From Betaproteobacteria bacterium (GTDB taxonomy: Bacteria; Pseudomonadota; Gammaproteobacteria; Burkholderiales; SG8-41), in the NCBI GenBank assembly GCA_016199485.1, contig JACQGO010000170.1, positions 1 through 42,797 on the forward strand: a DNA stretch of 42,797 nucleotides. The letters are read 5' to 3'. Shown piece after piece: positions 3,067-30,860 of this stretch (position 1 is the stretch's first letter; each line of letters starts with the position of its first letter). Made by a program: the position numbers and the translations under genes. Below the pieces are notes generated by a model, which saw only the letters and a list, made by a program, of their open reading frames with translations, was not told the origin of the DNA and made no database searches.

Positions 3067-3815
3067 GCGTTGGAACACCCGAACACGCCAAAGGGATGCT
3101 TGACACGGCGAAAAAGTCTACTCACTTTTGGGCGCGGGCTTATATCCAGGAGGTTATGCCGTTGCTTGATCGCCTCGCCGCTCAAGCCGCGCAGATCGTC
3201 GCGCTGGAGGCAGAGGTAGCGGCGTGGAAAGAGACCGCCGCACAGTTCTCTCGGGGTGTGGCCTACTATCAAGGGCTGGTAACGGAAATAGGGGCACAGT
3301 TTGGTCAGGCGGCTTACATCTCCGATGATGGCTCCCGCCAAGAGGAGATACTGTGTGCGAAGGTTCCTGCGCTTGTGGCTGCCCTCAAAACTGACCTAGC
3401 GGAAACCAAGGCGGAGGTGGCGCGGTTGACCTCTGAGTGCGAATTCAATGTGATGGCGTGTCAGAACATGGATGCCGAAATCGCCATCTACCGCACGCAG
3501 CTTGAGAAGGCCGAGGCGGAGGTAGAGCAGTTGAAGGAAATGAACCGCATTCAGCGGATTGCATTGGACTTTGACCCGTTCGTTGAAAACCGTCGCCTCA
3601 AAGCCGACCTCGCCCCCTTCGTCGCGCTGGTGGAGGCCGCGGAACGGTACAAGGAGTCTTTGGCTTCTGGCCTCGTCTGTTTAGCCGGGCAGACGTGTCA
3701 CGATCCTCTTCGGGACCATCGGCACTGGAGTCAACAAGAATGTGAGGCTCTGTACGGGCTAATGGCTGCCTTTGCCCATCCTGCGGTGCAGCGGGCGCTA
3801 AAGGATGGGGAATGA
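3063..3815 (+). CDS. Coiled-coil hypothetical protein
   Basis: 250 aa with long heptad-like region (LERLAAQAAQIVALEAEVAAW..., TRTQLEKAEAEVEQLKEM). Confidence 0.75.
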   Translation: MSVGTPEHAKGMLDTAKKSTHFWARAYIQEVMPLLDRLAAQAAQIVALEAEVAAWKETAAQFSRGVAYYQGLVTEIGAQFGQAAYISDDGSRQEEILCAKVPALVAALKTDLAETKAEVARLTSECEFNVMACQNMDAEIAIYRTQLEKAEAEVEQLKEMNRIQRIALDFDPFVENRRLKADLAPFVALVEAAERYKESLASGLVCLAGQTCHDPLRDHRHWSQQECEALYGLMAAFAHPAVQRALKDGE

Positions 3816-7246: not shown

Positions 7247-9244
7247 GTGCCGCCGCGCAAACGCCGCCCGCCTGAGCCCCCGAAGCCGCCGGAGCCGCCA
7301 GTCGAGCCATCTGCGGGTGATCGCGCGAAGCTCGCACGCCAGGACCTGCTGCGGAAGTGGCAGGCCCGCGTCAGCCGGGCGCGGGAGGTGCGCGCCACCT
7401 GGGAACGGACCTTCCGCATCGAGCAGGCCGAGAAGTATTTCATCGGCCAGCAGCAGGAACAGAAGGAACATATTCTCAACCGCTTCTGGGCCACGCTCCG
7501 TACCTCTCGACCGACCCTCCTCTACGCCGCTCCGAAATTCTTCGTGCGCCCCGCGCCCGGGCGGACGGAACCCGCGACGGAATCGGTGCTCGCCACCGCC
7601 GAAGGGCTTCTCGATGCGATCGCGCTGCGGGACGAGAACCTGAAGCACGCCGGCAAACTCGCCCTCCTGCAAGCCTATTTTCGCCTGGGCGTCCTGAAGG
7701 TGATCTACGATCCGCGTCTGGAGCCGAACCCAAAGAAGGGCGAGCCGATTTACCGCACGACCGAGCGCGGCGAGCCCGTGAAGGATGATCTCGGGGCCAA
7801 TGTTCCGGTCCGCGATCCCATGACGGGCGCGGTCGTCCTCGAGCCTGATGAGGTGCTGGTGGATGAGGTGTACCGCTGGCAGTGGGTGGACGCGGCCGCC
7901 CTGCTCCTGCCCGATGAAGGCCCCGATCCCGAATCCTGGACCTGGATCGGGGAGGAGATCAGCGTGCCCCTGGCCTCGGCCCAGGACGATCCCCGGTTTC
8001 CGGCGGGAATCCGATCCGGCCTCCGGGCCAACGCGACGGCCACGCGACCCCGGGCGAAGTCGGCCGAGCCTCCTGGCGGGATGGGCGGCGAGGCGGAGGA
8101 GATGTTCCGCTATCTGGAATGCTATGACCTTCGGCAGAAGCGATGGGCCGTGTGGGCGGAGGGGCAGATCGAGGAAGATTTTCTGGTCGAAGAGCCGATG
8201 CCGACATGGATCGAGGCCCATCCCTATGCCCTGCTCATCCTGGGCGACCCGATTTTGGGGCCGGAGTCCATCCCCTGGCCGTTTCCCCTGGTGCATCCCT
8301 GGCTCGACCCGCAACGGGAATACAATATCCGGCGCCAGCAGGTCATGGAAGGGGCCAAGCGCGCGGCGCGGAAGATTCTCTACGAGGAGCAGAGTTTCGC
8401 CGATTTCGACGAGGCGTTCAAGGGCTTGCAGAGCCCGAGTGATCTCGAAGCCGTCAAGGTGACGGACATCAACCGCCCGCCTCGGGTGCTGGAGATCCCG
8501 CCGCTGAACATGGATATTCACCGGGATTTGGGCTATCTGGACGCGGACTGGCGGGTCATCACGGGGCAATCTGGGGCGCGGCTCCAGGACCCCGACAAGG
8601 CCACGGCGACCGAATCGGCCTTCATCGAGCGGTCCGCCGGGGTCCGGGAATCGGAAATGCAGGATTCGGTCAACGATTGGCTGGCCACGGCCGGCCGCAA
8701 GATGCTCCAGGCCGTGAAGGAGACCCTGACCTTGGGGCTCTGGATTCGCCTGCGGGCCTTCGACGACAAGGAGTTCATGGCCTACATGGAGCGGGTCTAC
8801 CGGATTCCGAAAGAGGCCCTGGCCGGCTTCCCGGCGCTCAAGCAGGCCTTCCGGGAGCGGTTCGGGGCGGAAAAGTGGCTCCGGGTCCAGCGCGAAGCCC
8901 TCCAGTTCGAGGCCGACGTGCGGGTCTTTCCGGGCTCGACCCGTCCCCGAAATCTCGATTGGGAGCGGCGACAGTGGTTGGAGTTCCTGCAAATCCTTGG
9001 ACAGTACCCGCAGCTGGCCCTCAACCGGGAGCTCCTGCGCGAGACGGCGGCGAAGTTCGAGGGGATTTCCGAGCGCATCATCGACGAGCTGACGGCGACG
9101 GCCGAGCGCATGGTGGAGATCCAGGCGCGGCAGGCCGGGCGCACCCAGGGTGGCGCGCCGGGCGATGGGGCGGGCGCGGGCGGCAGCGCGGCTTCGCCGA
9201 TCGTGTCGGCCCTGCTGTCGGGGGCGACGGGAGGGGCGCGATGA
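7247..9244 (+). CDS. Portal protein
   Basis: 665 aa following TerL; portal-like organisation, C-terminal helix-rich tail. Confidence 0.75.
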   Translation: MPPRKRRPPEPPKPPEPPVEPSAGDRAKLARQDLLRKWQARVSRAREVRATWERTFRIEQAEKYFIGQQQEQKEHILNRFWATLRTSRPTLLYAAPKFFVRPAPGRTEPATESVLATAEGLLDAIALRDENLKHAGKLALLQAYFRLGVLKVIYDPRLEPNPKKGEPIYRTTERGEPVKDDLGANVPVRDPMTGAVVLEPDEVLVDEVYRWQWVDAAALLLPDEGPDPESWTWIGEEISVPLASAQDDPRFPAGIRSGLRANATATRPRAKSAEPPGGMGGEAEEMFRYLECYDLRQKRWAVWAEGQIEEDFLVEEPMPTWIEAHPYALLILGDPILGPESIPWPFPLVHPWLDPQREYNIRRQQVMEGAKRAARKILYEEQSFADFDEAFKGLQSPSDLEAVKVTDINRPPRVLEIPPLNMDIHRDLGYLDADWRVITGQSGARLQDPDKATATESAFIERSAGVRESEMQDSVNDWLATAGRKMLQAVKETLTLGLWIRLRAFDDKEFMAYMERVYRIPKEALAGFPALKQAFRERFGAEKWLRVQREALQFEADVRVFPGSTRPRNLDWERRQWLEFLQILGQYPQLALNRELLRETAAKFEGISERIIDELTATAERMVEIQARQAGRTQGGAPGDGAGAGGSAASPIVSALLSGATGGAR

Positions 9245-9423
9245 CGATCCAGACCAACGCCACGGAGATTAACGCCGAACAAGGGTCGGTCACCGTCCGG
9301 TACGCCGAACCCGTCGGCACGATGATCCTCAGCCCAGTCCAAGCCCGCGCGATCGCGTTGGCGCTGGTGCGGTATGCCGACGAAGCCGACCGACAGCGGG
9401 CCGTCCTGCAAGGGAAGAACTGA
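9241..9423 (+). CDS. 60-aa hypothetical protein
   Basis: ATGA overlap; MTIQTNATEINAEQGSVTVRYAEPVG.... Confidence 0.6.
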   Translation: MTIQTNATEINAEQGSVTVRYAEPVGTMILSPVQARAIALALVRYADEADRQRAVLQGKN

Positions 9424-9703
9424 GCTGGCGCGCATCGGCCCCGCCGTCTTTACCAAGGTGGGCGACCTGGCGCTCGAACCCGGCCGGATTCACATGATTC
9501 TGTGGGAAGGGGTGACGACGCTCGGCGATACGGCGCGGCTCAACTGCGTCGTGACGGGCGCCCTGATCTGGGCGGGACGGACGGATACGACGCAGACCTA
9601 TCAAGGGGCGAACTTCGGGCCGACGGGCCTGCATGTACCGTTTGGCGTGGAGCTGACGCAGTTGTCGGCGGGGCGGGTGCTCGTGTATTTCTTGGAGGAG
9701 TGA
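9374..9703 (+). CDS. Hypothetical virion-associated protein (start uncertain, may begin near 9425)
   Basis: Open frame; VGDLALEPGRIHMILWEGVTTLGDTARLNC.... Confidence 0.6.
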   Translation: MPTKPTDSGPSCKGRTELARIGPAVFTKVGDLALEPGRIHMILWEGVTTLGDTARLNCVVTGALIWAGRTDTTQTYQGANFGPTGLHVPFGVELTQLSAGRVLVYFLEE

Positions 9704-9706
9704 GGC

Positions 9707-10138
9707 ATGTCGAAAGGCAACACCTTCGAGAATGACCTGTTGGCGCTGATCTTTAACGCCACGGCGATTGCCAACCTCGCGGATAACGCCGCCACAGCGC
9801 CGCTGACCAACCTCGCCGTGGCGCTTCACACGGCGGACCCCGGCGAGGCGGGCACGCAGGCCACAAATGAGACGGCCTATACCGGCTACGCACGCGTCTC
9901 GGTGGCTCGAACCACGGGCGGCTGGACGGTTTCTGGAGGCAGCGTGAGCCCGGTCGCCAACATCGACTTCGGGGAATGCACCGCGTCGCCCGGTGCGGCG
10001 ATCACGTTCTTCAGTGTGGGGCCGACGGGCGGCGGCGCGACAAAGATTTTCTATAGTGGGACAGTCAGTCCCAACATAACGATGGCTGTTGGTGTAATCC
10101 CTCGACTCAAGACGACGAGTTCAATTTCGGAAGACTAG
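9707..10138 (+). CDS. Phage tail fiber/virion protein of the 'FENDLLxLIF...LHTADPGEAGTQxTNE' family
   Basis: Recognisable family signature ALHTADPGEAGTQATNETAYTGYARVSVAR. Confidence 0.8.
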   Translation: MSKGNTFENDLLALIFNATAIANLADNAATAPLTNLAVALHTADPGEAGTQATNETAYTGYARVSVARTTGGWTVSGGSVSPVANIDFGECTASPGAAITFFSVGPTGGGATKIFYSGTVSPNITMAVGVIPRLKTTSSISED

Positions 10139-10148
10139 AGCACAAGTC

Positions 10149-10556
10149 ATGCCCTGGCCCAAAGGCAAGCCGAGAGCGCGCGCGACGCGCGATAAGATCG
10201 CCGCCACAACCACTCTGCGTCACAAGGCTGCGCATACTGCCTACATAAAGGAGTGGCAGGCGCGAAATCCGGGCAAGACCGCCTTCTGGAAGTTGAAAGG
10301 TCAGCGCGACACGCGCCTGCGCACGATCGAGCATCTTGGGAGGAAATGCAGACGCTGCGGATTCGAGGATTGGCGCGCGCTCCAGATAGATCATGTCAAT
10401 GGAGATGGCCGTAAAGACCGGGAGCGTGACGGAAATCGGTACCGACTCTTCAGGTCGATCATCGCCCATCCGGAGAAGTATCAGTTGCTTTGCGCCAACT
10501 GCAACTGGATCAAGCGGTACGAGAACGGCGAGCACAACGTTCGCCACGAAGATTGA
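10149..10556 (+). CDS. HNH homing-type endonuclease
   Basis: CRRCGFEDWRALQIDHVNGDG...YQLLCANCNWIKRYENG. Confidence 0.85.
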   Translation: MPWPKGKPRARATRDKIAATTTLRHKAAHTAYIKEWQARNPGKTAFWKLKGQRDTRLRTIEHLGRKCRRCGFEDWRALQIDHVNGDGRKDRERDGNRYRLFRSIIAHPEKYQLLCANCNWIKRYENGEHNVRHED

Positions 10557-10559
10557 CCG

Positions 10560-11222
10560 ATGACCCTCGCCAACGATAGCATTCTCGTCACGCCGGGCTC
10601 TGGCGCGATTGTCGCCACACACCTGATCGGTGGCAAGGAGCACCAGGTCGTCGTGCAAGCAGATGGCGATGGGCATATCACCAACACGATCCCGACGTAC
10701 TTCTACATGGTGCCAGCAACGGGGGGTGCGGCGAGCAAGCTCTATCTTGATCTGTTCAACGCCGTAGGGTCCGGCAAGATCGTTGATGTTCGCGGCGTCT
10801 GGGCGGTTCCGAAGACCGACGTTGCAACGGGGGTTGCGATCGCGCTGCGGCTCGACCTCTTTCGGACCTCGGCTGTGGGAACAGGTGGTACGGCGGCGGC
10901 CTACAAGTCAGCGACACAGGATGTTGCGGGCGGCAATATTACGCCGAGTGACACGAACAACGCGGCCCTGCCGGCGCAGATCACGGCGCGCCACCTGCCG
11001 ACTGGCGGAGCAACAATCGCAGAGTGGATTTTCTCGACCTACGTGCCGGGGGAAGAAGTCACGACCTCAATGTCCTACATCACGCAGTTCCAGAACTTGA
11101 TGCCAGTACTATTCTTTGGGCAAAAATGGACGTTGCGCGAGGGACAGGGACTACTTTTGAAGAATGGGGCGGTAGCCGCTGCGATCAACATTGCCTTCCT
11201 GATCTGCTTCACGGTGGAATAA
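10560..11222 (+). CDS. Virion structural protein (head/decoration candidate)
   Basis: 220 aa, position and beta-rich composition. Confidence 0.55.
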   Translation: MTLANDSILVTPGSGAIVATHLIGGKEHQVVVQADGDGHITNTIPTYFYMVPATGGAASKLYLDLFNAVGSGKIVDVRGVWAVPKTDVATGVAIALRLDLFRTSAVGTGGTAAAYKSATQDVAGGNITPSDTNNAALPAQITARHLPTGGATIAEWIFSTYVPGEEVTTSMSYITQFQNLMPVLFFGQKWTLREGQGLLLKNGAVAAAINIAFLICFTVE

Positions 11223-11687
11223 ATGAGCCTGCTGCTCTTTTTCCCCAGCGCAGGCGGCAGCCCGACGATCATCGAAGCGGACGCGAGCGCCAGCGGCGTG
11301 GCCGCTGATGCCGTAGTCGGGCGGTCCGTGTTCAGTGGGGTCAGTTCGGCAGCGGGAGTCGCGGCTTCTATCGTGGCGGGCGTGGCCCTCTGGCTCACCG
11401 TCGTGACCTCGGCGGGAGTGGGAACGCCTACGGGAGTAGGCGCGGCGTTCTTCTTAGGCGCTGGATCAAGTGTCGGACTCGCGGCGGATGCCGTTATCGG
11501 AGCGGCGCTCTTCCTCGGAGCGGGTTCTGCCGCTGGGGTAGCGTCGGATGGGGTGATCAGCGCAGCGATTGCCGCCTTCCTGGGGTCGGCAACGGGCCTC
11601 GCGGTCGTCAGCGGCGATGGTCAATCCATTGCGACGACCGCCGGCTCGGCCAAATGGACGCGGCAAACCGCGCTCTTGGTGGGCTAG
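11223..11687 (+). CDS. Low-complexity Ala/Gly/Val repeat protein
   Basis: Imperfect repeats (G-A-G-S-[AS]-[AV]-G-[VL]-A-[AS]-D-[AG]-V-I). Confidence 0.6.
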   Translation: MSLLLFFPSAGGSPTIIEADASASGVAADAVVGRSVFSGVSSAAGVAASIVAGVALWLTVVTSAGVGTPTGVGAAFFLGAGSSVGLAADAVIGAALFLGAGSAAGVASDGVISAAIAAFLGSATGLAVVSGDGQSIATTAGSAKWTRQTALLVG

Positions 11688-11688
11688 G

Positions 11689-11988
11689 ATGCCGCTTTTT
11701 CTGTTCGCCTGCTTGGACGGGCATACGCGAGAGGCGTTTCACCATGTCGGGGAGGATCTGGGGACTATGACCCCGATCTGTGACCGAGAGGGGCACACTA
11801 TGGGGCGCGTCCTGAGCGTCGGGCGGGGATTGACTTGGTTCCGGGAAAATCACCCGCAAGTTATCCACAACATGGGGCATGACCCCGTGGTGGTGCGGAG
11901 TGCTGAGGAACACAAGCAAAAGATGAAAGAGCACGGTGTAGACTGGGCGACGAAGTGGACGAAAGAGAAAACGGGGGGATGGGTGTGA
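11689..11988 (+). CDS. FmdB-like small protein, divergent
   Basis: MPLFLFACLDGHTREAF..., RVLSVGRGLTWFRENHPQV.... Confidence 0.5.
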   Translation: MPLFLFACLDGHTREAFHHVGEDLGTMTPICDREGHTMGRVLSVGRGLTWFRENHPQVIHNMGHDPVVVRSAEEHKQKMKEHGVDWATKWTKEKTGGWV

Positions 11989-11989
11989 G

Positions 11990-12298
11990 ATGGCCTGGCC
12001 GAAAGGACGGCCGCGGAGGATGATGATGGCGCAAGACCAGAAGATCAGTCCAGGATGGGTGAAACTCCGGTGCGATTGCGGAGCGGAACAATTCAGTCGG
12101 CTCTTTTTCCTCCGGTCTAAGCCGGGCAGCGGGCAGGTGGAGGAACCGGCCGGCTGGAAGTGCAGTGGGTGCGGGGCTCAGATCGACACGGCGTACCTCC
12201 AGCGGTTGGTGCAGATCAGCCAGCGGCGGGAAGAGCTGCGGGCCGCCCAGGAGGAGTTGAAGAGCCTCGAAGGCGCTCCGCAACCGACGAAGAAGTAA
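11990..12298 (+). CDS. Zn-ribbon/coiled-coil small protein
   Basis: LRCDCGAEQF...WKCSGCGAQID. Confidence 0.6.
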   Translation: MAWPKGRPRRMMMAQDQKISPGWVKLRCDCGAEQFSRLFFLRSKPGSGQVEEPAGWKCSGCGAQIDTAYLQRLVQISQRREELRAAQEELKSLEGAPQPTKK

Positions 12299-12311
12299 GG
12301 AGGAATCGGTC

Positions 12312-12500
12312 ATGCCGCTGAATCAGCCCGTCCGCTATCGGGTGAAGACCACTTCCGGTGGGAAAAAAGTGCGTCTCGCGTTCGTCAAGGGAACCAATCG
12401 CGTGATTGAGGCGAAATCGCTGTCCAGCGGGAAAACTCACACGCCGGCGGAATTTCGGGCGGATCGGGCGCGGAAACTCAAGCGGCGGATGGTGGGATGA
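12312..12500 (+). CDS. 62-aa basic hypothetical protein
   Basis: AAGGAGGAATCGGTCATG start context. Confidence 0.65.
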   Translation: MPLNQPVRYRVKTTSGGKKVRLAFVKGTNRVIEAKSLSSGKTHTPAEFRADRARKLKRRMVG

Positions 12501-12652
12501 GCGACTCCCAGCCCAAGGTCCGCTGCCCCTGCTGTCACCGCCTGCTCTTCGTCGGGGAACTCCGGGGGGTCATCCGGTGCGGCAAGTGCGGCACGGACCT
12601 CTACATCAACGGCCAGGAAATCAAACTTGACAAGAGCACGTTAAAGGCGTAA
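12497..12652 (+). CDS. Com-like zinc-ribbon protein (51 aa)
   Basis: VRCPCCHRLLFVGELRGVIRCGKCGTDLYINGQ. Confidence 0.65.
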   Translation: MSDSQPKVRCPCCHRLLFVGELRGVIRCGKCGTDLYINGQEIKLDKSTLKA

Positions 12653-12680
12653 CCATCGGGATTCAGTAGAGCCCATCGAG

Positions 12681-12701
12681 GGCCTCCGAGCCTCAGAGGC
12701 C
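12681..12701 (+). promoter_or_regulatory. Hairpin GGCCTC-N9-GAGGCC overlapping the 5' arm of the downstream terminator
   Basis: Perfect 6-bp arms; GGCC 12698..12701 is shared with the terminator stem. Confidence 0.5.
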
Positions 12702-12742
12702 GGGAAGCCGGGCATACCGCCCGGGACTCCCTGGCCTTTTTT
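12698..12742 (+). terminator. Intrinsic terminator, GC-rich two-part stem followed by T6
   Basis: GGCCGGGA-ag-CCGGGC-ATACC-GCCCGG-gac-TCCC-t-GGCC-TTTTTT. Confidence 0.8.
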
Positions 12743-12756
12743 GCGTTCAGGAGGCG

Positions 12757-13623
12757 ATGATGGCAGATGACCCGAGAGACCCGCAGCCGGAGCCGGTCCC
12801 GGCCCCTGAGCCGGCGCCAAGCCCGGAACCCGCGCCCGAACCCACTCCCGCAATCGAATCGTTCATCGACCCGAGCACGCTCCCGGAGGAGATCAAACCG
12901 CACTGGAAGCGGATGCACCGGGCCTATACCAAGGCCCTGGAGCAGACGAAGGGCCGGAAACCAGATCTTGACATGCTCGACCGGTTCCGGTCTGAGCCGG
13001 AGTTCGCTGCCAGTGTGATCCGCCAGGAAGCCGCTCGGCTCGGGATCACCCTGCCTCTTGCTTCTGGCCAGCCCGGCGGGGCGGCTCCCAGCGGGGAGCG
13101 TCCGCCCGCCCAGTTGGTCGAGGCCATTCGGGCCAACCTACCCCCGGAACTCCAGTGGATGGCGGAGGCGCAAGCCGCCGCGTATTGGGCCGCCAACAAA
13201 CTCACCCTGGCCCCGCTGATGCAGCGGACGCAGGCGAGCGACAAGGCCCAGCGTGAGGCCCAGTTCGATGATCTCGCGGAGCAACTCTCCGCGGAGATGC
13301 CCGGGTGGGAGGAACACGAGGACGAGATTTCGGAGCTGCTCGACTTTCTCCAGTCCGACGCGATGACGCACCGGACCTTTGGCTCGAAGCTGAAGCTCCT
13401 GGCTCAGATGGTCATGGGCAACGGGGCGGCCGTCTCCGAGGCGGCCCGGCGGATGAGCGAGGCGGGGCGCAATCGCACGGCGACGGGACAGCCGGGTCGC
13501 GCGACGACGGACAACTTCACCGACCGCATTCGGAAGGCTCCCACGGACCAGGAGGCCTGGAAACTGGCCGCCGACGCGGCCCTGCAGGAACTCAAGGCCC
13601 ATGGGGTCTCCGTGAAGGAGTAA
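12757..13623 (+). CDS. Scaffold protein
   Basis: AGGAGG RBS; Pro/Glu-rich N-terminus then charged helical body, directly upstream of MCP. Confidence 0.75.
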   Translation: MMADDPRDPQPEPVPAPEPAPSPEPAPEPTPAIESFIDPSTLPEEIKPHWKRMHRAYTKALEQTKGRKPDLDMLDRFRSEPEFAASVIRQEAARLGITLPLASGQPGGAAPSGERPPAQLVEAIRANLPPELQWMAEAQAAAYWAANKLTLAPLMQRTQASDKAQREAQFDDLAEQLSAEMPGWEEHEDEISELLDFLQSDAMTHRTFGSKLKLLAQMVMGNGAAVSEAARRMSEAGRNRTATGQPGRATTDNFTDRIRKAPTDQEAWKLAADAALQELKAHGVSVKE

Positions 13624-13630
13624 GAGAACC

Positions 13631-14857
13631 GTGAAAGCCCTACGCTGGCTCCGCACCGTCAATACGGTGCTCTCGCACCATCTCGTCGGCTTCGGCCTGG
13701 CCGTGGCGACGGGGGACTGGTGGTGGGTGCTCCTGCCCGTGCCGATCTTCGGGCAGATCCCCTCCAGTCTCACGGATGACTACGGCGCGCTGCTGACGAC
13801 GACTTTGCGCGCGATGCAACCGCGGCTCCACGACAACATCACCCGCGGCAACAAGTTTCTCTCGTACCTCCGCCTCCGGGGCCGCTGGCGTACCCAGGAC
13901 GGCGGCGAGCGGGTCCAGATCGCGCTGATGCACGCCCAGAACAACACGGCGGACATCTACGCGGGCTACGGCACGCTCGACACCACGCCTCAGGACGGCA
14001 TCACCTCCGCCTTTTACGACTGGGCGCAGATTTCCGTCTCGATCGCCATCAGCCGGAAGGAGGCGCGCCAGAATTCCGGCCGCTCGCGGGCGTTGAACCT
14101 GCTGGAAGCGAAAACCAAGCAGGCCCAGGTCTCGGCCCAGGAACTCCTGAACAACTGCATCGTGGCGGGCCGCATCACGGCCTCCGCCAACGTCGGCCGG
14201 TTCTTCGCCCGGGTCGGCCGGCTGGATTCGGGGGCCTCGGGCCCGCTTCCGCTGGGCGCGCTGATCGACGCGCTGCCTACCCGGTCGGTCGCCATCGGCA
14301 ACATCAACGGCAATACCTATAGCTTCTGGCGCAACCGGCAGACGGACTCCAGCGCCACGACCTACCGGGGCCTCATCCAGGAGATGACCACGATGTATAA
14401 CGACTGCTCGCGGGGTGCGGGCGGGTTCCCCGATCTGCTCCTCGGCGACCAGAACTCCTGGGAGCGGTATTTCAACGCGCTGTCAAACCAAGAGCGGTAC
14501 ATCGTGACCGACAAGCGCGTCCTGGACGTGCTCGGCGGCCCCAACGGGTCGGATGATCTCTTGAAGTTCCGGGGCGCCGTGTTCATCTGGGATGAGGTCG
14601 TGCCCGATACGGAAACCAACGCCGAAGTGGTCGATGCCATCGGCACCTTCACGCTCGGCACGATCTTCTTCATCAACTCCGAGTCGTTCGAATACGTGGT
14701 GGACAGCGAAACGGACTTCATCACCACGCCATTTTTGCGTCCTGAGAACCAGGATGCCAGAGTGGCACAAATCCTCTGGATGGGATGTGTTGGAGTGAAT
14801 CAGCGCAGGAAAAACGGACAGTTACAGGGTATAGCCTATAGCTCGATCTCCAGCTAG
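13631..14857 (+). CDS. Major capsid protein (HK97-fold-like)
   Basis: 408 aa after scaffold; ...PENQDARVAQILWMGCVGVNQRRKNGQLQGIA C-terminus. Confidence 0.75.
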   Translation: MKALRWLRTVNTVLSHHLVGFGLAVATGDWWWVLLPVPIFGQIPSSLTDDYGALLTTTLRAMQPRLHDNITRGNKFLSYLRLRGRWRTQDGGERVQIALMHAQNNTADIYAGYGTLDTTPQDGITSAFYDWAQISVSIAISRKEARQNSGRSRALNLLEAKTKQAQVSAQELLNNCIVAGRITASANVGRFFARVGRLDSGASGPLPLGALIDALPTRSVAIGNINGNTYSFWRNRQTDSSATTYRGLIQEMTTMYNDCSRGAGGFPDLLLGDQNSWERYFNALSNQERYIVTDKRVLDVLGGPNGSDDLLKFRGAVFIWDEVVPDTETNAEVVDAIGTFTLGTIFFINSESFEYVVDSETDFITTPFLRPENQDARVAQILWMGCVGVNQRRKNGQLQGIAYSSISS

Positions 14858-14858
14858 G

Positions 14859-15326
14859 CTAGCTAAACCTGCGGCGAACATGAAATTTCTTCATCAAAAG
14901 GTAGTAGCGATGGCGGCGGGACAAGAGCCATTTTGGCACGGGCCGTCTGTTACGGCCGACTGCCCAACGGTTCTGCGAGGCGACAGTCCGCTGGTAGAAG
15001 GCAATCGCCAGCCGAGTCTCTTCCGGCTTGGCGACCAGATACGGGAGCAACCTTCGCAGGATCACAATACCTCGGCGTCCTCCGACATGAGCCACATGCA
15101 TCCGTCGATGGTTGGCACGGGCGCGCCACCTGGACGAACTGAAGGTTTTCCGCAATCCAAAGTGCGCGCAGAAGGCGTCAACCGGCCGCGGATCGGCCAT
15201 CTCGATGGTCAGGCTGAAGATGTACGACGGCGAGCGCATGGCGTTGCTGGCATGAGTACGCTTAATGCAAATGGAACCCTCGCCGTCCACGAGACCGGCA
15301 AAGTAAGCAAGCTTCGTGTTGGCCAT
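14859..15326 (-). CDS. LAGLIDADG homing endonuclease (frame extends to 15368)
   Basis: MANTKLAYFAGLVDGEGSICI...RRGIVILRRLLPYLVAKPEETRLAIAF. Confidence 0.85.
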   Translation of the reverse strand: MANTKLAYFAGLVDGEGSICIKRTHASNAMRSPSYIFSLTIEMADPRPVDAFCAHFGLRKTFSSSRWRARANHRRMHVAHVGGRRGIVILRRLLPYLVAKPEETRLAIAFYQRTVASQNRWAVGRNRRPVPKWLLSRRHRYYLLMKKFHVRRRFS

Positions 15327-15367
15327 ACCCAAGGGTATCACGAATCCTTGCGTGGCGTGAACTATCA

Positions 15368-15425
15368 ATGCGCTGGTAACACAACGGTCGTTGGCCCGGC
15401 GTCAGTGACAAACACACCAGCGCAT
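15368..15425. repeat. 10-bp inverted repeat ATGCGCTGGT / ACCAGCGCAT with 38-nt spacer
   Basis: Arms 15368..15377 and 15416..15425. Confidence 0.7.
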
Positions 15426-15451
15426 GGAGGCGGCCTACGCTCTTTCAGAGA

Positions 15452-15895
15452 TTGAACCGATCCGATCCGGAACGCGTGTTTATTGTCGTGCAAGCGAACG
15501 AGGCCCTGGCGGTGGACGACTGCTGCCAGTGGGAACTGGCCTCGGCGTCCATCGACGGCGTGAAGGTGCGGCAGCCCGACACTGGCAACCTCTTCGCCTT
15601 CGTCGGCGTGGCGGACGCCGCGATCAGCGCCAACGCCTTCGGGCTGGTGCAGGTCTACGGCTATCGCTCCACGTCGCGGGTCTTCCAGACCGACACCTCC
15701 CAGAATACCGGCGTGGCGCTGGTGCCGACGGCCGCCCAGGTCTACCTCCAGTCGGTGGCCACCACGATCCAGGTGTCCAGCACCATCGCCACGACCGTCA
15801 CTCTCCAGCCGATCTTCGCGGTGCTGGGGGAGACGGTGTCGAACTCGGCCGCGTCGGCCACCACCACGGCCAAGGTGTTTATCCGCGCTCTATGA
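15452..15895 (+). CDS. Virion structural protein (TTG or GTG start)
   Basis: Follows MCP region; VFIVVQANEALAVDDCCQWELASASIDGVKVRQPDTGN. Confidence 0.6.
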   Translation: MNRSDPERVFIVVQANEALAVDDCCQWELASASIDGVKVRQPDTGNLFAFVGVADAAISANAFGLVQVYGYRSTSRVFQTDTSQNTGVALVPTAAQVYLQSVATTIQVSSTIATTVTLQPIFAVLGETVSNSAASATTTAKVFIRAL

Positions 15896-15953
15896 CGTAG
15901 GTGGCAGGGGCGCGGCTGCCGGGCGTCTGCCGAACCAACGCGCACGGGAACCT

Positions 15954-16544
15954 ATGCGGGCGGAGCCTGCGTTCGATAAGTACGAGCAGGCGGGGGACTA
16001 CCACTGGCGGGAGTACCGCCACAACACGCCCTACGCCGCCCACGCCCGGCGGGTGCGGGGCTGGATCACCGAGCGGCGGGTGCTCGATGTCGGCGGCGGG
16101 GATGGCCTGATCGCGTGGCTCTTGCAACGCAAGGGCTGCGAGGTGCAGGTCGTGGACACGTCCCCGCTGGCCGTGGGCTATGCACGGGCGCATGGCGTCC
16201 CGGCAGCGGTCGGGAGCGCCTACCGGGTGCGGGGGCGCTGGGAGGCCGTCTACTGTGGCGACACGCTGGAGCATTTGCGCTGGCCTGGTCTGGCTTTGCG
16301 CCGGTTTCGTCGCGTGGCGCCGATCCTCTACGTGGCGACGCCGCCGAAGGCGTCCGATGGTCAACTCCATGATCCCCGACACCTCACTGAATGGACTCCC
16401 GACGGTCTCCGTGCGTTCGTGGAGCGGCAGGGTTGGCGACAAATCTCTTCTGACGTGGCGCACGCACGCATCCTGGCGAAGTTTACCCGTGCGCCTCTAT
16501 CGTGGGGGCGGCGGTGTCTGACCGCGATCTGGCCGTTTCGCTAG
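15954..16544 (+). CDS. Class I SAM-dependent methyltransferase
   Basis: RVLDVGGGDGLIAWLLQRKGCEVQVVDTSPLAVGYAR...YCGDTLEHL. Confidence 0.85.
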   Translation: MRAEPAFDKYEQAGDYHWREYRHNTPYAAHARRVRGWITERRVLDVGGGDGLIAWLLQRKGCEVQVVDTSPLAVGYARAHGVPAAVGSAYRVRGRWEAVYCGDTLEHLRWPGLALRRFRRVAPILYVATPPKASDGQLHDPRHLTEWTPDGLRAFVERQGWRQISSDVAHARILAKFTRAPLSWGRRCLTAIWPFR

Positions 16545-17071
16545 TCCGGGCCTACGGGTTCCGGCAGGGCGCGGAGCTCGGTGTGTGGCGGGGCGCCCGG
16601 GCGTGGGCGCTGCTCGAGCAGACGGGTCTCGATGGTCTGCTGCTGGTCGATCCCTGGGAGGAACGGTTCAACCGCTTCCCGGCCGTCGGTACCCCGGATC
16701 GGATGCCAGCGGGTCTGTATGACTGCACGATGGGCGAGCCCCACCAGGATCAAGCGGCGCTCGAGGTCATGGCCAAGGCCGTGGAACGCCGGGCGGCGGA
16801 GTACGGGACGCGCTGCCGCGTGCTGCGGATGACCGCCCTGGACGCCGCGTCGTTGAGCGCGGATGGAAGTCTCGACGTGGTGATCTGGGACGCCGTCCAT
16901 CTGTACCAGCTCTGCCGCGATGATCTCCTCGCCTGGAAGCCGAAACTCCGGGCGGGCGGGATGCTCTGTGGCGACGGGTACGAGAGCGCGGGGGTGCGCC
17001 AGGCCGTGGATGAAGTCCTCGGGCGGGAGAAATGGGTGCAGGGCGGCTTTTGGGGGACGATCCTGCCATGA
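16514..17071 (+). CDS. Class I SAM-dependent methyltransferase (second)
   Basis: GAELGVWRGARAWALLEQTGLDGLLLVDPWE...DVVIWDAVHLYQLCRDDLLAWKPKLRAGGMLCGD. Confidence 0.8.
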   Translation: MSDRDLAVSLVRAYGFRQGAELGVWRGARAWALLEQTGLDGLLLVDPWEERFNRFPAVGTPDRMPAGLYDCTMGEPHQDQAALEVMAKAVERRAAEYGTRCRVLRMTALDAASLSADGSLDVVIWDAVHLYQLCRDDLLAWKPKLRAGGMLCGDGYESAGVRQAVDEVLGREKWVQGGFWGTILP

Positions 17072-20248: not shown

Positions 20249-20913
20249 TCCGCTCCGAGATTCGCGCCCGCATTCTTCACGGTCTCAATGAGCCGGACGT
20301 GGCCAATCCGGTCTTCTGGTCCGCGACCGAGCTGAACCAGGTTATCGACGAAGCGATGGAGGTGCTGGCGGAGGAGACCGCAGCGATCAAGCGGACCACC
20401 TACGTCCCTTTGGAAGCGGCTTGGACCTACTACAGCCTCCGGGGATTGGCGCCCGATCTGATGGTGCCCTGGCGGCTCTGGGTGGTCTCCCAGGAGCGGC
20501 GCCTGACGCCGGTGACGATGGAGGAACTGGATCGGTTCCACCGGGAATGGATCACCGTGACGGGTGATCCCTGGCATTGGTTTCCACTGTCCTGGGAGAC
20601 CTTCGGGCTCTTCCCCAAACCGGCCTCCGCCGGCGGCGTGCTGCGGGTAGACTATCTGGCCTGGCCGCGCGCCCTGCTCGACGACGACGACGAACCGGAA
20701 ATGGATCTGGCCGACCATGAGGCGCTGGTCGGGTACGGGATCTACGACGGCCTGGCGAAGCGATGGGATCAATTGCGGATGGTCGAAGCCTGGGCGCTCT
20801 TCCAGCGGCAGGGACTCGGCGCGAAGGGTCGCGCGGGGGCGCGCGCGCAGGCGCGATCCGCTCAACGCGGCGAAGTCCAGGATTTCGAGGAGCCGGGGAT
20901 TGCCGACCGTTAG
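20245..20913 (+). CDS. Head-tail adaptor-like virion protein
   Basis: MIRSEIRARILHGLNEPDVANPVFWSATELNQVIDEAMEVLAEE; positional. Confidence 0.6.
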   Translation: MIRSEIRARILHGLNEPDVANPVFWSATELNQVIDEAMEVLAEETAAIKRTTYVPLEAAWTYYSLRGLAPDLMVPWRLWVVSQERRLTPVTMEELDRFHREWITVTGDPWHWFPLSWETFGLFPKPASAGGVLRVDYLAWPRALLDDDDEPEMDLADHEALVGYGIYDGLAKRWDQLRMVEAWALFQRQGLGAKGRAGARAQARSAQRGEVQDFEEPGIADR

Positions 20914-22498
20914 CGAGGATCTGGACCTGGTGCAGAAAAAGCTCCACGACAGCGGCGCGATCTGGTCGCGGACGGAACTCCTTCGGTTTTATAACGATGG
21001 CTACCGCGAATTCTTGGCTCGCTCGCAGGCCGTTCGTCGACTTCGGCCGCTTGATCTGCCTGGTCGTCATACCTATGCGGTTCTCCACGAATGGGAAGAT
21101 CGGCATGTGAGTCGCGGCACGGTGCGGAAGCCCTCGCGCGCCGCCCGGGCGGCGTCGATGCAAGCGACGGGGCTCTGGGAGATCGAGGCGAGCGTGGGCC
21201 TCACCTCGACGGCCGCCCTCGCCAATTTCACCCAGGAATGGGAGCGAGCGTTTGTCTCGACGGATCGGCATGTGCAGATCACGTTTCCTCGAAACCATGA
21301 GCGGATCGCCCGCCTCGCGTGGAAAGAGCGAAAGCTCGCTCCGGTGTCCGTGCGGGAGCTGGATAACACCGATGACGCCTGGGAGCAGCGCGGCGGCGAT
21401 CCCCGCTGGTGGACGACGGGCGTCGGGCGGGTGCGGAGCGTGGAAATCTACGAGATTCGGACGGACTATCAGCAGGCATATGCGCTAGAGGCGGCCGACG
21501 CGGGGACGCCCCGGAGGTTTTCGGGAGATCGGACCTGGACGGTCGCTCGACTCGACACCGCCCCCGCCAATGCTTATGCCTATCTGACTTTTGGGGACGC
21601 GCAAGCTCTGACCACGCGCGGGGCGGACTTCGCGCCGCAGTGGGCCTATACGCAACTCTGGGAGCGGGCGGAGGTGACGGGGGCCGCATGGGAATTCGTG
21701 ATCGATTACACGATGAACTTCCCCGGCCTGACGTTCACCGTGATCCATCCGTGGGAATTCGGGCTTGTGCAACAGCCGCATCCCGACATTCTGGATGATC
21801 CCGCCACGCCGGGCAAGCGCGGGATGTTCGCCTGGGAGCATCACGATCCCGACGGCAGGTACGCGAGCCGTGTGGCGACGGGCGATCCGCCGATCAGCTT
21901 GCTCGGTCTTGGCGTGCGGATTAGCACGGCGGCGGCGGCGGCGGGCTCTTTCGGCACCCAACCGTGGGAGGCCGACCAGGTGGACGGGGTGACGCTTCGG
22001 GCGGGCCAGGTCACGGGGTGCTTTAGCTGGGAGCCGGCCTTCGGCGCGGTACTTCTGACGCTCGGACTCGGCACGATCCGGCATCTCCGGTCAGACGCCT
22101 TTCAATACCTAGCGCAGGATGAGGACCAAGCCTCCAGTGCCGGGCTTCTCGGTCGAATCATGGACTGGCGATCCTCGACGGATTCCCTCGTGGCGACAGA
22201 GGTCGTGCTGCCGGTTCGGGATCTCCAGGAAACGGAGACGCCGCAGTTGGTCTCGCCCCCGCTCCAGAAGTATCTGCGCTTCTTCGTCCTCTCGATCGCC
22301 TTCGGACGACCCGGCGAAGGCCGTCAGCCGGTGCTCGCGGATCACTATGGCCGGCGATTCCAACGCGGGATCGAGTTCTTCCGTCGGTTCGCGGATGTGG
22401 CCCATCGGGATCGCGTGTGGAGCCGGGAAGGGTTCGTCACGACCGAGCGGGTGGTCCCCAAGGTGCGATTCCCCGCCACCTTCCCCCGGGTCTTCTGA
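20900..22498 (+). CDS. Tail/virion structural protein
   Basis: TTG start in overlap; 532 aa. Confidence 0.65.
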   Translation: MPTVSEDLDLVQKKLHDSGAIWSRTELLRFYNDGYREFLARSQAVRRLRPLDLPGRHTYAVLHEWEDRHVSRGTVRKPSRAARAASMQATGLWEIEASVGLTSTAALANFTQEWERAFVSTDRHVQITFPRNHERIARLAWKERKLAPVSVRELDNTDDAWEQRGGDPRWWTTGVGRVRSVEIYEIRTDYQQAYALEAADAGTPRRFSGDRTWTVARLDTAPANAYAYLTFGDAQALTTRGADFAPQWAYTQLWERAEVTGAAWEFVIDYTMNFPGLTFTVIHPWEFGLVQQPHPDILDDPATPGKRGMFAWEHHDPDGRYASRVATGDPPISLLGLGVRISTAAAAAGSFGTQPWEADQVDGVTLRAGQVTGCFSWEPAFGAVLLTLGLGTIRHLRSDAFQYLAQDEDQASSAGLLGRIMDWRSSTDSLVATEVVLPVRDLQETETPQLVSPPLQKYLRFFVLSIAFGRPGEGRQPVLADHYGRRFQRGIEFFRRFADVAHRDRVWSREGFVTTERVVPKVRFPATFPRVF

Positions 22499-29040: not shown

Positions 29041-30860
29041 CCGAGACGATTCGGTACGGGCTCATCGGGAAACAGGACATCCGATTCGGTACAGGCAAAT
29101 TTGAGGTGACGCTCGCCGATGGGCGAGTGGTGACGCTTGATGAATTCAATTTGGTGACACTGCTGGTCGATTCGGGACTGGTGGTGCCATCGTACTCCAA
29201 GGCCGGACTCCCTGCCGCCGGCACCGCCGGTCGGCTGGCGCGGATGACAGATGGGGGCACGCCTGACAACATTGTCGAGGACAACGGCTCCAATTGGCGC
29301 TCAATCTACTCGCGTACCACCGGCGTCATCGTCATCACCGACCCGCAGTTTGGCGCCGACCCCGCTGCAACTGCATCGGCGAATCAAACGGCGATCCAAG
29401 CCGCAATCGATGCCGCTGCCGGCTCTACCGTCCTGGTGCCAGAAGGCACCTTTAATCTTGCTGGAGGACTAACGGTGCCGAGCAATACACGACTCGTCGG
29501 TGTGGGTCGTGACTCAGTCTTGCGTTTCGCTGATACCGTTGGTGCCAACATCGCGATGATCAGAAACGCCGATCAAGCCAATGGGAATAGCAACATCTCC
29601 ATTTTGGATTTACGGCTCGATGGCAACCGCGCCGGGCAGAGCTTCTCCGGCGACAACGGTCAGAACGGGATCGAATTGCATGGCGTCAACAATTTCCTCA
29701 TTCAGAACGTCATTGCCAGCAGCTTCGGGAAGGACAGCTTCTACTTCGGAATCGCCGGGACGAAGATCAGTTCCGATGGACGTGTAATCGGGAACTTCGC
29801 CTCCGACAACAGACGCATCGGTTTTACCGTCGTAGCCGGCGAGGACATTATATTCGCAGGAAATACCGCCGTCGATATGGCCGGTGGCGTCAGCGGCAAC
29901 GGGTTCCATGTTGAATCCAACAATGCTGCGAATGCCACGCGCCGTCTCACGTATGTCGGCAACGTCGCTACCGGGAATGCCCAAGCAGGGTTCGTCCTTG
30001 CCAATGGGAAGCAGGCTGATGTGTCCGGGCTGATCTGGGCCGGGAATGTGGCGAGTGGCAACACGCAGGATGGATTCTTCATCCAGCAAGGCAACAACAA
30101 CCAGGCGATCACGCTCCAGGGGAACACGATCGTTTCGAATAGCCGCGACGGCATCCGCGTGGCAGGCAGCGGGCGGTACGTCAGAATACTTGGCAACACC
30201 ATCAGCAACAATACCGCCATCGGGATTAATAGCACTGTCAACGCCATTGAGCGTTTCCAGATTCAGCAAAATTACGTTGGCCGTAACGGGCAGCATGGAA
30301 TTGTCCTGCTGCGAGGCAGCGGCCACCGCTCTCATCATCTCATCACTGGCAATGTGATCGACGCCAACGGTACATCTGCCTCGAACACGTATGACGGCAT
30401 CAACGTGTCGTCGGATAGCGCGGCGAGCGAATTTCGCCACACGATCATTAACAACAACCAGATCATCGATCTAGAAGCGAGTCCGACGCAACGCTATGGA
30501 CTGAACTTCGGAGCAAATACCGCTAGCAACATCGTTGAAGGAAACCGGTTCCAGGGCAACGTCAGCGGACAGATCAACAATAGTGCTGGAGCCAGCTTCA
30601 TCCGCGCCAACAGCGGCTTCGTGACAGAAAATAGTGGTACGGGGACCATCAACAGCGGCGCGACTTCAGCGACCGTGAGCCACGGACTCGATGTAACGCC
30701 CACCGCCAAGGCTATTGTGGTCAATTTCACGGAGAATCCTACTAACGACCCCGGCAACTTCTGGATCAGCGCCATAACGAGCACGCAGTTTACCGTCAAC
30801 GTACGAAATGATCCGGGCGCGTCGAACCTCGACTTTACGTGGCAGGTAACGGTGTATTGA
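29037..30860 (+). CDS. Tailspike with right-handed beta-helix (pectate-lyase-like)
   Basis: DPQFGADPAATASANQTAIQAAIDAAAGSTVLVPEGTFNLAGGLTVPSNTRLVGVG... and repeated NxxxGNTI strands. Confidence 0.85.
   Translation: MTETIRYGLIGKQDIRFGTGKFEVTLADGRVVTLDEFNLVTLLVDSGLVVPSYSKAGLPAAGTAGRLARMTDGGTPDNIVEDNGSNWRSIYSRTTGVIVITDPQFGADPAATASANQTAIQAAIDAAAGSTVLVPEGTFNLAGGLTVPSNTRLVGVGRDSVLRFADTVGANIAMIRNADQANGNSNISILDLRLDGNRAGQSFSGDNGQNGIELHGVNNFLIQNVIASSFGKDSFYFGIAGTKISSDGRVIGNFASDNRRIGFTVVAGEDIIFAGNTAVDMAGGVSGNGFHVESNNAANATRRLTYVGNVATGNAQAGFVLANGKQADVSGLIWAGNVASGNTQDGFFIQQGNNNQAITLQGNTIVSNSRDGIRVAGSGRYVRILGNTISNNTAIGINSTVNAIERFQIQQNYVGRNGQHGIVLLRGSGHRSHHLITGNVIDANGTSASNTYDGINVSSDSAASEFRHTIINNNQIIDLEASPTQRYGLNFGANTASNIVEGNRFQGNVSGQINNSAGASFIRANSGFVTENSGTGTINSGATSATVSHGLDVTPTAKAIVVNFTENPTNDPGNFWISAITSTQFTVNVRNDPGASNLDFTWQVTVY

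Follow-up and report, generated by a model that had tools for sequence, protein, structure and literature searches.

The 3′ end of a phage major capsid gene was probably replaced through homing repair from a donor phage, which would also have brought in the homing endonuclease gene that now lies directly behind it. We consider co-acquisition the best reading of the locus because codon usage breaks sharply inside the capsid gene and endonuclease-free relatives of this gene show no such break. The window analyzed here is the whole 42.8-kb contig of a metagenome-type assembly, and its gene content, which includes portal and Mx8-type head genes, suggests a podophage-like genome. Searches by protein and by DNA detected no close relative of the phage among phages or plasmids, nor did the genome contigs that were scanned contain one. 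Likewise, 74 family-level, 274 class-level and 399 phylum-level genomes contained nothing beyond 20-35% identity to it.

The major capsid (head) protein gene occupies positions 13631..14857 of the plus strand and was assigned on the basis of a match to phrog_9953 (1.2e-40), tblastn hits to nine phages and alignment with relatives. A preliminary description of this DNA had reported an antisense LAGLIDADG gene abutting the capsid gene and a capsid C-terminus of normal appearance, and both observations were borne out. The stop codon (14855-14857) is followed by a single spacer base (14858) and then by the end of a minus-strand ORF at 14859, the two genes lying tail to tail. The family alignment revealed a regular C-terminus (NQDA..ILWMG...), and the capsid tail shows no anomaly in its protein identity to relatives. 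In three annotated capsid relatives, the capsid gene is separated from the following gene by 13-69 bp, versus 594 bp in the window, where the nuclease gene fills the gap. At the other end of the capsid gene, approximately 44 extra N-terminal residues (13631-13765), membrane-like (KALRWLRTVNTVLSHHLVGFGLAVATGDWWWVLLP), are absent from relatives, whose alignment begins at about residue 45. The true start may be later than 13631, or this segment may be a fused small protein.

The minus-strand gene (14859..15368) starts at either TTG 15368 (169 aa) or ATG 15326 (155 aa), the latter being more likely. Its product matched phrog_5046 (3.1e-18) and contains the motif YFAGLVDGEG, in which only Y, A, G and DGEG were invariant among 17 aligned sequences, including 16 relatives. 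An AF2 model of the protein (pLDDT 87.6) had an alpha-beta-beta-alpha-beta-beta-alpha fold, and a Foldseek search against PDB matched it to I-CvuI, I-CreI and I-MsoI (E-values of ~1e-6 to 3e-7, probability 1.00, TM ~0.6-0.7). The motif, the phrog match and the modeled fold thus identify the gene as a single-motif LAGLIDADG homing endonuclease of the I-CreI/I-MsoI type, with predicted activity. It is free-standing, located between two ORFs and outside any intron or intein. A group I intron around the nuclease was considered and rejected, as no Rfam match was found in 9000-17000 and the capsid ORF runs uninterrupted up to the stop codon. RNA folding upstream of the nuclease was no better than that of shuffled sequences.

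Within the capsid gene, the best change point of GC3 is exactly 14729, with a value of 0.899 before and 0.548 after this position (LLR 14.4). The observed likelihood ratio was never reached in 2,000 codon shuffles (p = 5e-4, the floor for this number of shuffles). The codon-anomalous tail (14729..14857, plus strand) consists of 42 codons and the stop, and it encodes the normal family C-terminus. The breakpoint near 14729 that had been proposed earlier from codon endings was therefore recovered, as were the underlying counts of G/C-ending codons, 14/16 directly before it and 23/42 in the tail. A second test, applied to 23 genes, used an amino-acid-conditional codon score, which removes the effect of amino-acid composition, with a change point and a permutation p. 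The capsid gene ranked first (t 8.31, p 3e-4), with the same breakpoint as by GC3. A gp80-like gene, for which the preliminary description had claimed the same pattern at 10040 with a different nuclease family, ranked second by permutation p (t 4.37, p 0.001), and its break indeed precedes an HNH endonuclease gene. By t alone, the gene at 22417 was marginally above the gp80-like gene (4.43), and its break lies at the 5′ start, in the overlap with the gene at 20717. By chance, both nuclease-flanked genes would be the top two of 23 by p with a probability of 1/253. An apparent break at the beginning of the terminase ORF (6272, 5′ end) was dismissed as an artefact of a wrong start, which a small gene overlaps.

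One explanation of these data is mosaic recombination of the ordinary kind affecting the 3′ end of the capsid gene, with a nuclease inserted nearby by coincidence. Phage genomes are mosaic, and the window does contain codon-odd patches without a nuclease (29454-29543, 3678-3767 and 11091-11180); the association of nucleases with codon breaks in the window is strong, not exclusive. Nevertheless, we regard coincidence as quite improbable, since the two breaks with the lowest p occurred in exactly the two genes with a nuclease directly 3′, and breaks that run up to a nuclease from within conserved, essential coding sequence would not otherwise be expected. The patches 11091-11180 and 3678-3767 are near gene 3′ ends, and may reflect either nucleases that have since been lost or ordinary mosaicism. 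In addition, three other genes near nuclease relatives were subjected to the break test and none was significant, showing that the association between nucleases and breaks is not universal.

Nuclease-free relatives served as controls. In 13 of 13 capsid relatives without the nuclease, GC3 of the last 42 codons was like that of the body (for example, 0.94/0.95, 0.92/0.98 and 0.85/0.93), the largest drop being 0.14. For the gp80-like gene, six relatives without a nuclease at this place had GC3 pairs of 0.58/0.59, 0.91/0.91, 0.87/0.94, 0.83/0.97, 0.40/0.34 and 0.28/0.28, with no drop such as that in the window (0.83/0.47). Because the controls were flat, low 3′ GC3 is not a trait of the capsid or gp80 families.

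The tail might instead have changed in place, without transfer, either by drift or by selection for cleavage resistance or for signals serving the convergent antisense gene. The anomaly is synonymous and leaves a normal family peptide, which is what such a process would produce. However, usage changes in a sharp step over 42 codons rather than gradually, no terminator was found at the junction of the capsid tail and the nuclease gene, and the HNH gene at the gp80 locus is co-oriented with its neighbor, so antisense effects cannot explain both loci. In addition, the recognition site of a LAGLIDADG endonuclease is approximately 20 bp, far shorter than the tail. Given that 129 bp far exceeds one cleavage site, a copied donor tract is a more economical explanation than selection for immunity, and we consider in-place evolution very improbable.

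According to the co-acquisition reading, the LAGLIDADG nuclease would have cleaved a genome lacking it, close to the capsid 3′ end, and a lower-GC3 donor phage would have served as the repair template, from which one contiguous tract would have been copied, presumably in a single event. This tract would comprise the nuclease gene together with approximately the last 129 bp of the donor capsid gene on its left and a short flank on its right. An intact capsid protein would be preserved, with the copied tail encoding the same family C-terminus, and the new 3′ end would now differ from the cleavable allele, which may render the resident allele immune. Behind the nuclease 5′ end lies a spacer (15369..15451) with a 13-nt imperfect inverted repeat (15365-15377/15416-15428), followed by the next structural-region gene (15452..15895, plus strand). 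The first ~15 codons of the latter have low GC3, with a change at 15497 (p 0.011 by GC3 shuffle, not significant by codon score), a possible, albeit weak, candidate for the right edge of the foreign tract. The link between tail and nuclease at the capsid locus is compositional only, and their adjacency points to a common origin; however, GC3 of the nuclease gene is 0.69, less extreme than that of the tail (0.55), and with compositions that differ the two need not have one origin.

The second locus contains the gp80-like/phrog_240 structural gene (9707..10138, plus strand; PF23140, 2e-11), which is 41-66% identical over its full length to proteins of six phages. Its codon-anomalous tail (10040..10138, plus strand; change point at 10040) comprises 32 codons and the stop, and is absent in these six relatives. 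The gene ends 10 bp before the HNH endonuclease gene (10149..10556, plus strand; phrog_2255, 4e-15). This HNH gene ends in GAAGATTGA (E-D-stop), and the next gene follows after a 3-base gap. Relatives of the gp80-like gene end in TED- or SED-stop, and it is suggestive that GAAGATTGA may represent the displaced native gp80 3′ end, a post hoc match of nine bases.

Base-by-base evidence for the exchange of a gene 3′ end along with an endonuclease came from Arthrobacter korraviruses. In 22 records, DNA polymerase I is followed at a distance of 22-29 bp by an HNH gene whose product is 37-40% identical to the window HNH over ~73 residues; other records lack this gene. Nuclease-bearing phages include Glenn, Jumboset, Wawa, Pterodactyl and Bodacious, among others, and nuclease-free phages include Kalizoi, Korra, DrRobert and Bennie. 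The nuclease-free alleles are nearly identical and display the tail swap base by base. When Glenn was compared with Kalizoi or Korra, the final 600 bp of the polymerase gene differed only in the last codons, and the polymerase ends in DAKPWNK-stop without and DAKEWNR-stop with the nuclease. The swapped tail is only ~15 nt. In nine nuclease-bearing phages, the last 18 nt of the polymerase gene track the HNH type (r 0.89, Mantel p 2e-4), versus no correlation with the polymerase body (r -0.02, p 0.45). The insert is ~407-473 bp long and is bounded by GATGCGAA and (C)TGGAACAAGTAG. The native end TGGAACAAGTAG recurs at its far side, where it forms the last HNH codons (ACPHWNK-stop) in 7 of 9 phages; counted over all nuclease-bearing korravirus records, the HNH-fused native end occurs in 18 of 22. 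The flank after the displaced TGGAACAAGTAG is of the Korra type in Jumboset and of the DrRobert type in Bodacious and Pterodactyl.

Read from these alleles, the korravirus HNH gene carries a substitute polymerase 3′ end, and the native end is displaced behind or into the HNH gene. The proposal of the preliminary description that endonuclease genes move with a recoded 3′ end of their neighbor is thus directly visible for this HNH, whereas for the capsid locus it follows from the codon break and the controls. Movement of the korravirus element was probably driven by the nuclease. The gp80/HNH locus may, by analogy, be of the same kind. The korravirus elements represent the clearest result of our analysis and a testable one, as laboratory Arthrobacter phages allow a direct test. 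Glenn has two stacked native tails, the first of the Bennie type (95.6% over 45 nt) and the second of the Korra type (100%), which read as a scar of an earlier nuclease residence. In nuclease-free DrRobert and Bennie, WCKHCRRVH is present just past the polymerase stop, like the start of the HNH gene, and this site may also have held a nuclease before.

The korravirus elements resemble mobile ORFs of fungal mitochondria, such as those in Allomyces atp6 and Glomus atp6, atp9, cox2 and nad3, in which foreign C-termini were described (PMC3630166). Both contain a substitute 3′ end and a displaced native end. As in the fungal ORFs, a LAGLIDADG endonuclease (in fungi also GIY-YIG) follows its host gene at the capsid locus; the 3′ end of the host gene is foreign in fungi, taking the place of the original C-terminus, and is putatively so in the capsid gene. 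The capsid locus differs in that the native C-terminus usually stays downstream of the endonuclease in fungi, and in that those elements reside in mitochondria rather than phages. An element of this kind, composed of a replacement capsid 3′ end and the nuclease, could have been inserted within the capsid coding sequence, with the native end displaced behind the nuclease and later lost. The architecture is the same and the tracts are similar in size (129 and 99 bp in the window versus ~51-238 bp for Glomus C-termini; PMC3630166). Korraviruses show such an insertion for a related HNH, which immediately follows an essential gene whose tail has been exchanged, and the window HNH has the E-D-stop ending of native gp80. 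However, the capsid nuclease is antisense and that of korraviruses is co-oriented, with a far shorter swapped tail and the native tail retained in or behind the HNH gene. A displaced native capsid tail was searched for between the nuclease and the next gene by translation, repeats and alignment against shuffles, and none was detected (score of 24 versus a shuffled mean of 24.9, p 0.61). A foreign capsid 3′ end without a displaced native end fits double-strand-break repair (co-conversion) better than insertion, and we consider the inserted element unlikely at this locus. The earlier comparison with integrases that restore tRNA 3′ ends applies to korraviruses, with their displaced native end.

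Homing with co-conversion of flanking sequence was documented for several free-standing seg/mob nucleases of T4 in the available part of PMC2988022. According to the same material, segD, like the capsid nuclease in the window, is an antisense free-standing gene directly behind the major capsid gene (23), before gene 24. On the other hand, the T4 seg/mob nucleases are GIY-YIG or HNH rather than LAGLIDADG enzymes, and a swapped coding 3′ end of a neighboring gene is not described in that part of the source. HEG islands (Barth 2023, PMC10448857) also have nuclease genes beside capsid and other essential genes that mark edges of exchange; unlike the window loci, they are large nuclease-flanked regions and not short tail swaps within a gene. 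As far as the available text of PMC7968924 goes, engineered home-and-rescue gene drives likewise combine a cutter with a functional replacement of the cut part of an essential gene, although these are synthetic Cas9 systems and the analogy is one of logic only.

It is possible, and we suggest it tentatively, that phages hold a general class of tail-swapping homing elements drawn from two or more nuclease families, HNH and LAGLIDADG among them, each of which lands in the 3′ end of an essential gene and supplies a substitute for the coding end. The capsid and gp80 loci of the window would then be members of this class beside the korravirus polymerase elements. Homing elements usually spare essential genes by splicing (introns and inteins) or by residing outside the gene. 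Swapping of 3′ ends is a third way, already known from fungal mitochondria; no earlier description of it in phages was found in the open-access literature, a part of the whole literature. If true, such a class would account for mosaic boundaries within conserved phage genes and would constitute a natural home-and-rescue drive, independent of introns and inteins, with the logic of a gene drive.

Other relatives of the LAGLIDADG nuclease occur in different settings, and none of 54 loci with such relatives was beside a capsid gene. Ten relatives are located just behind tmRNA genes, and the tmRNA T-loop is interrupted (..GGGTTCGAT|) in most of these. Group I introns in tmRNA, a known kind (PMC11915505), would be expected to cause such an interruption. 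Two Burkholderiales relatives that matched best over the C-terminal part are both directly upstream of an AAA-type-ATPase-like gene. In the Streptomyces phages Gilson and Anedea, the LAGLIDADG relative is directly upstream of thyX, which it overlaps in Gilson, and thyX in these two phages is a place where the tail swap might have an N-terminal counterpart.
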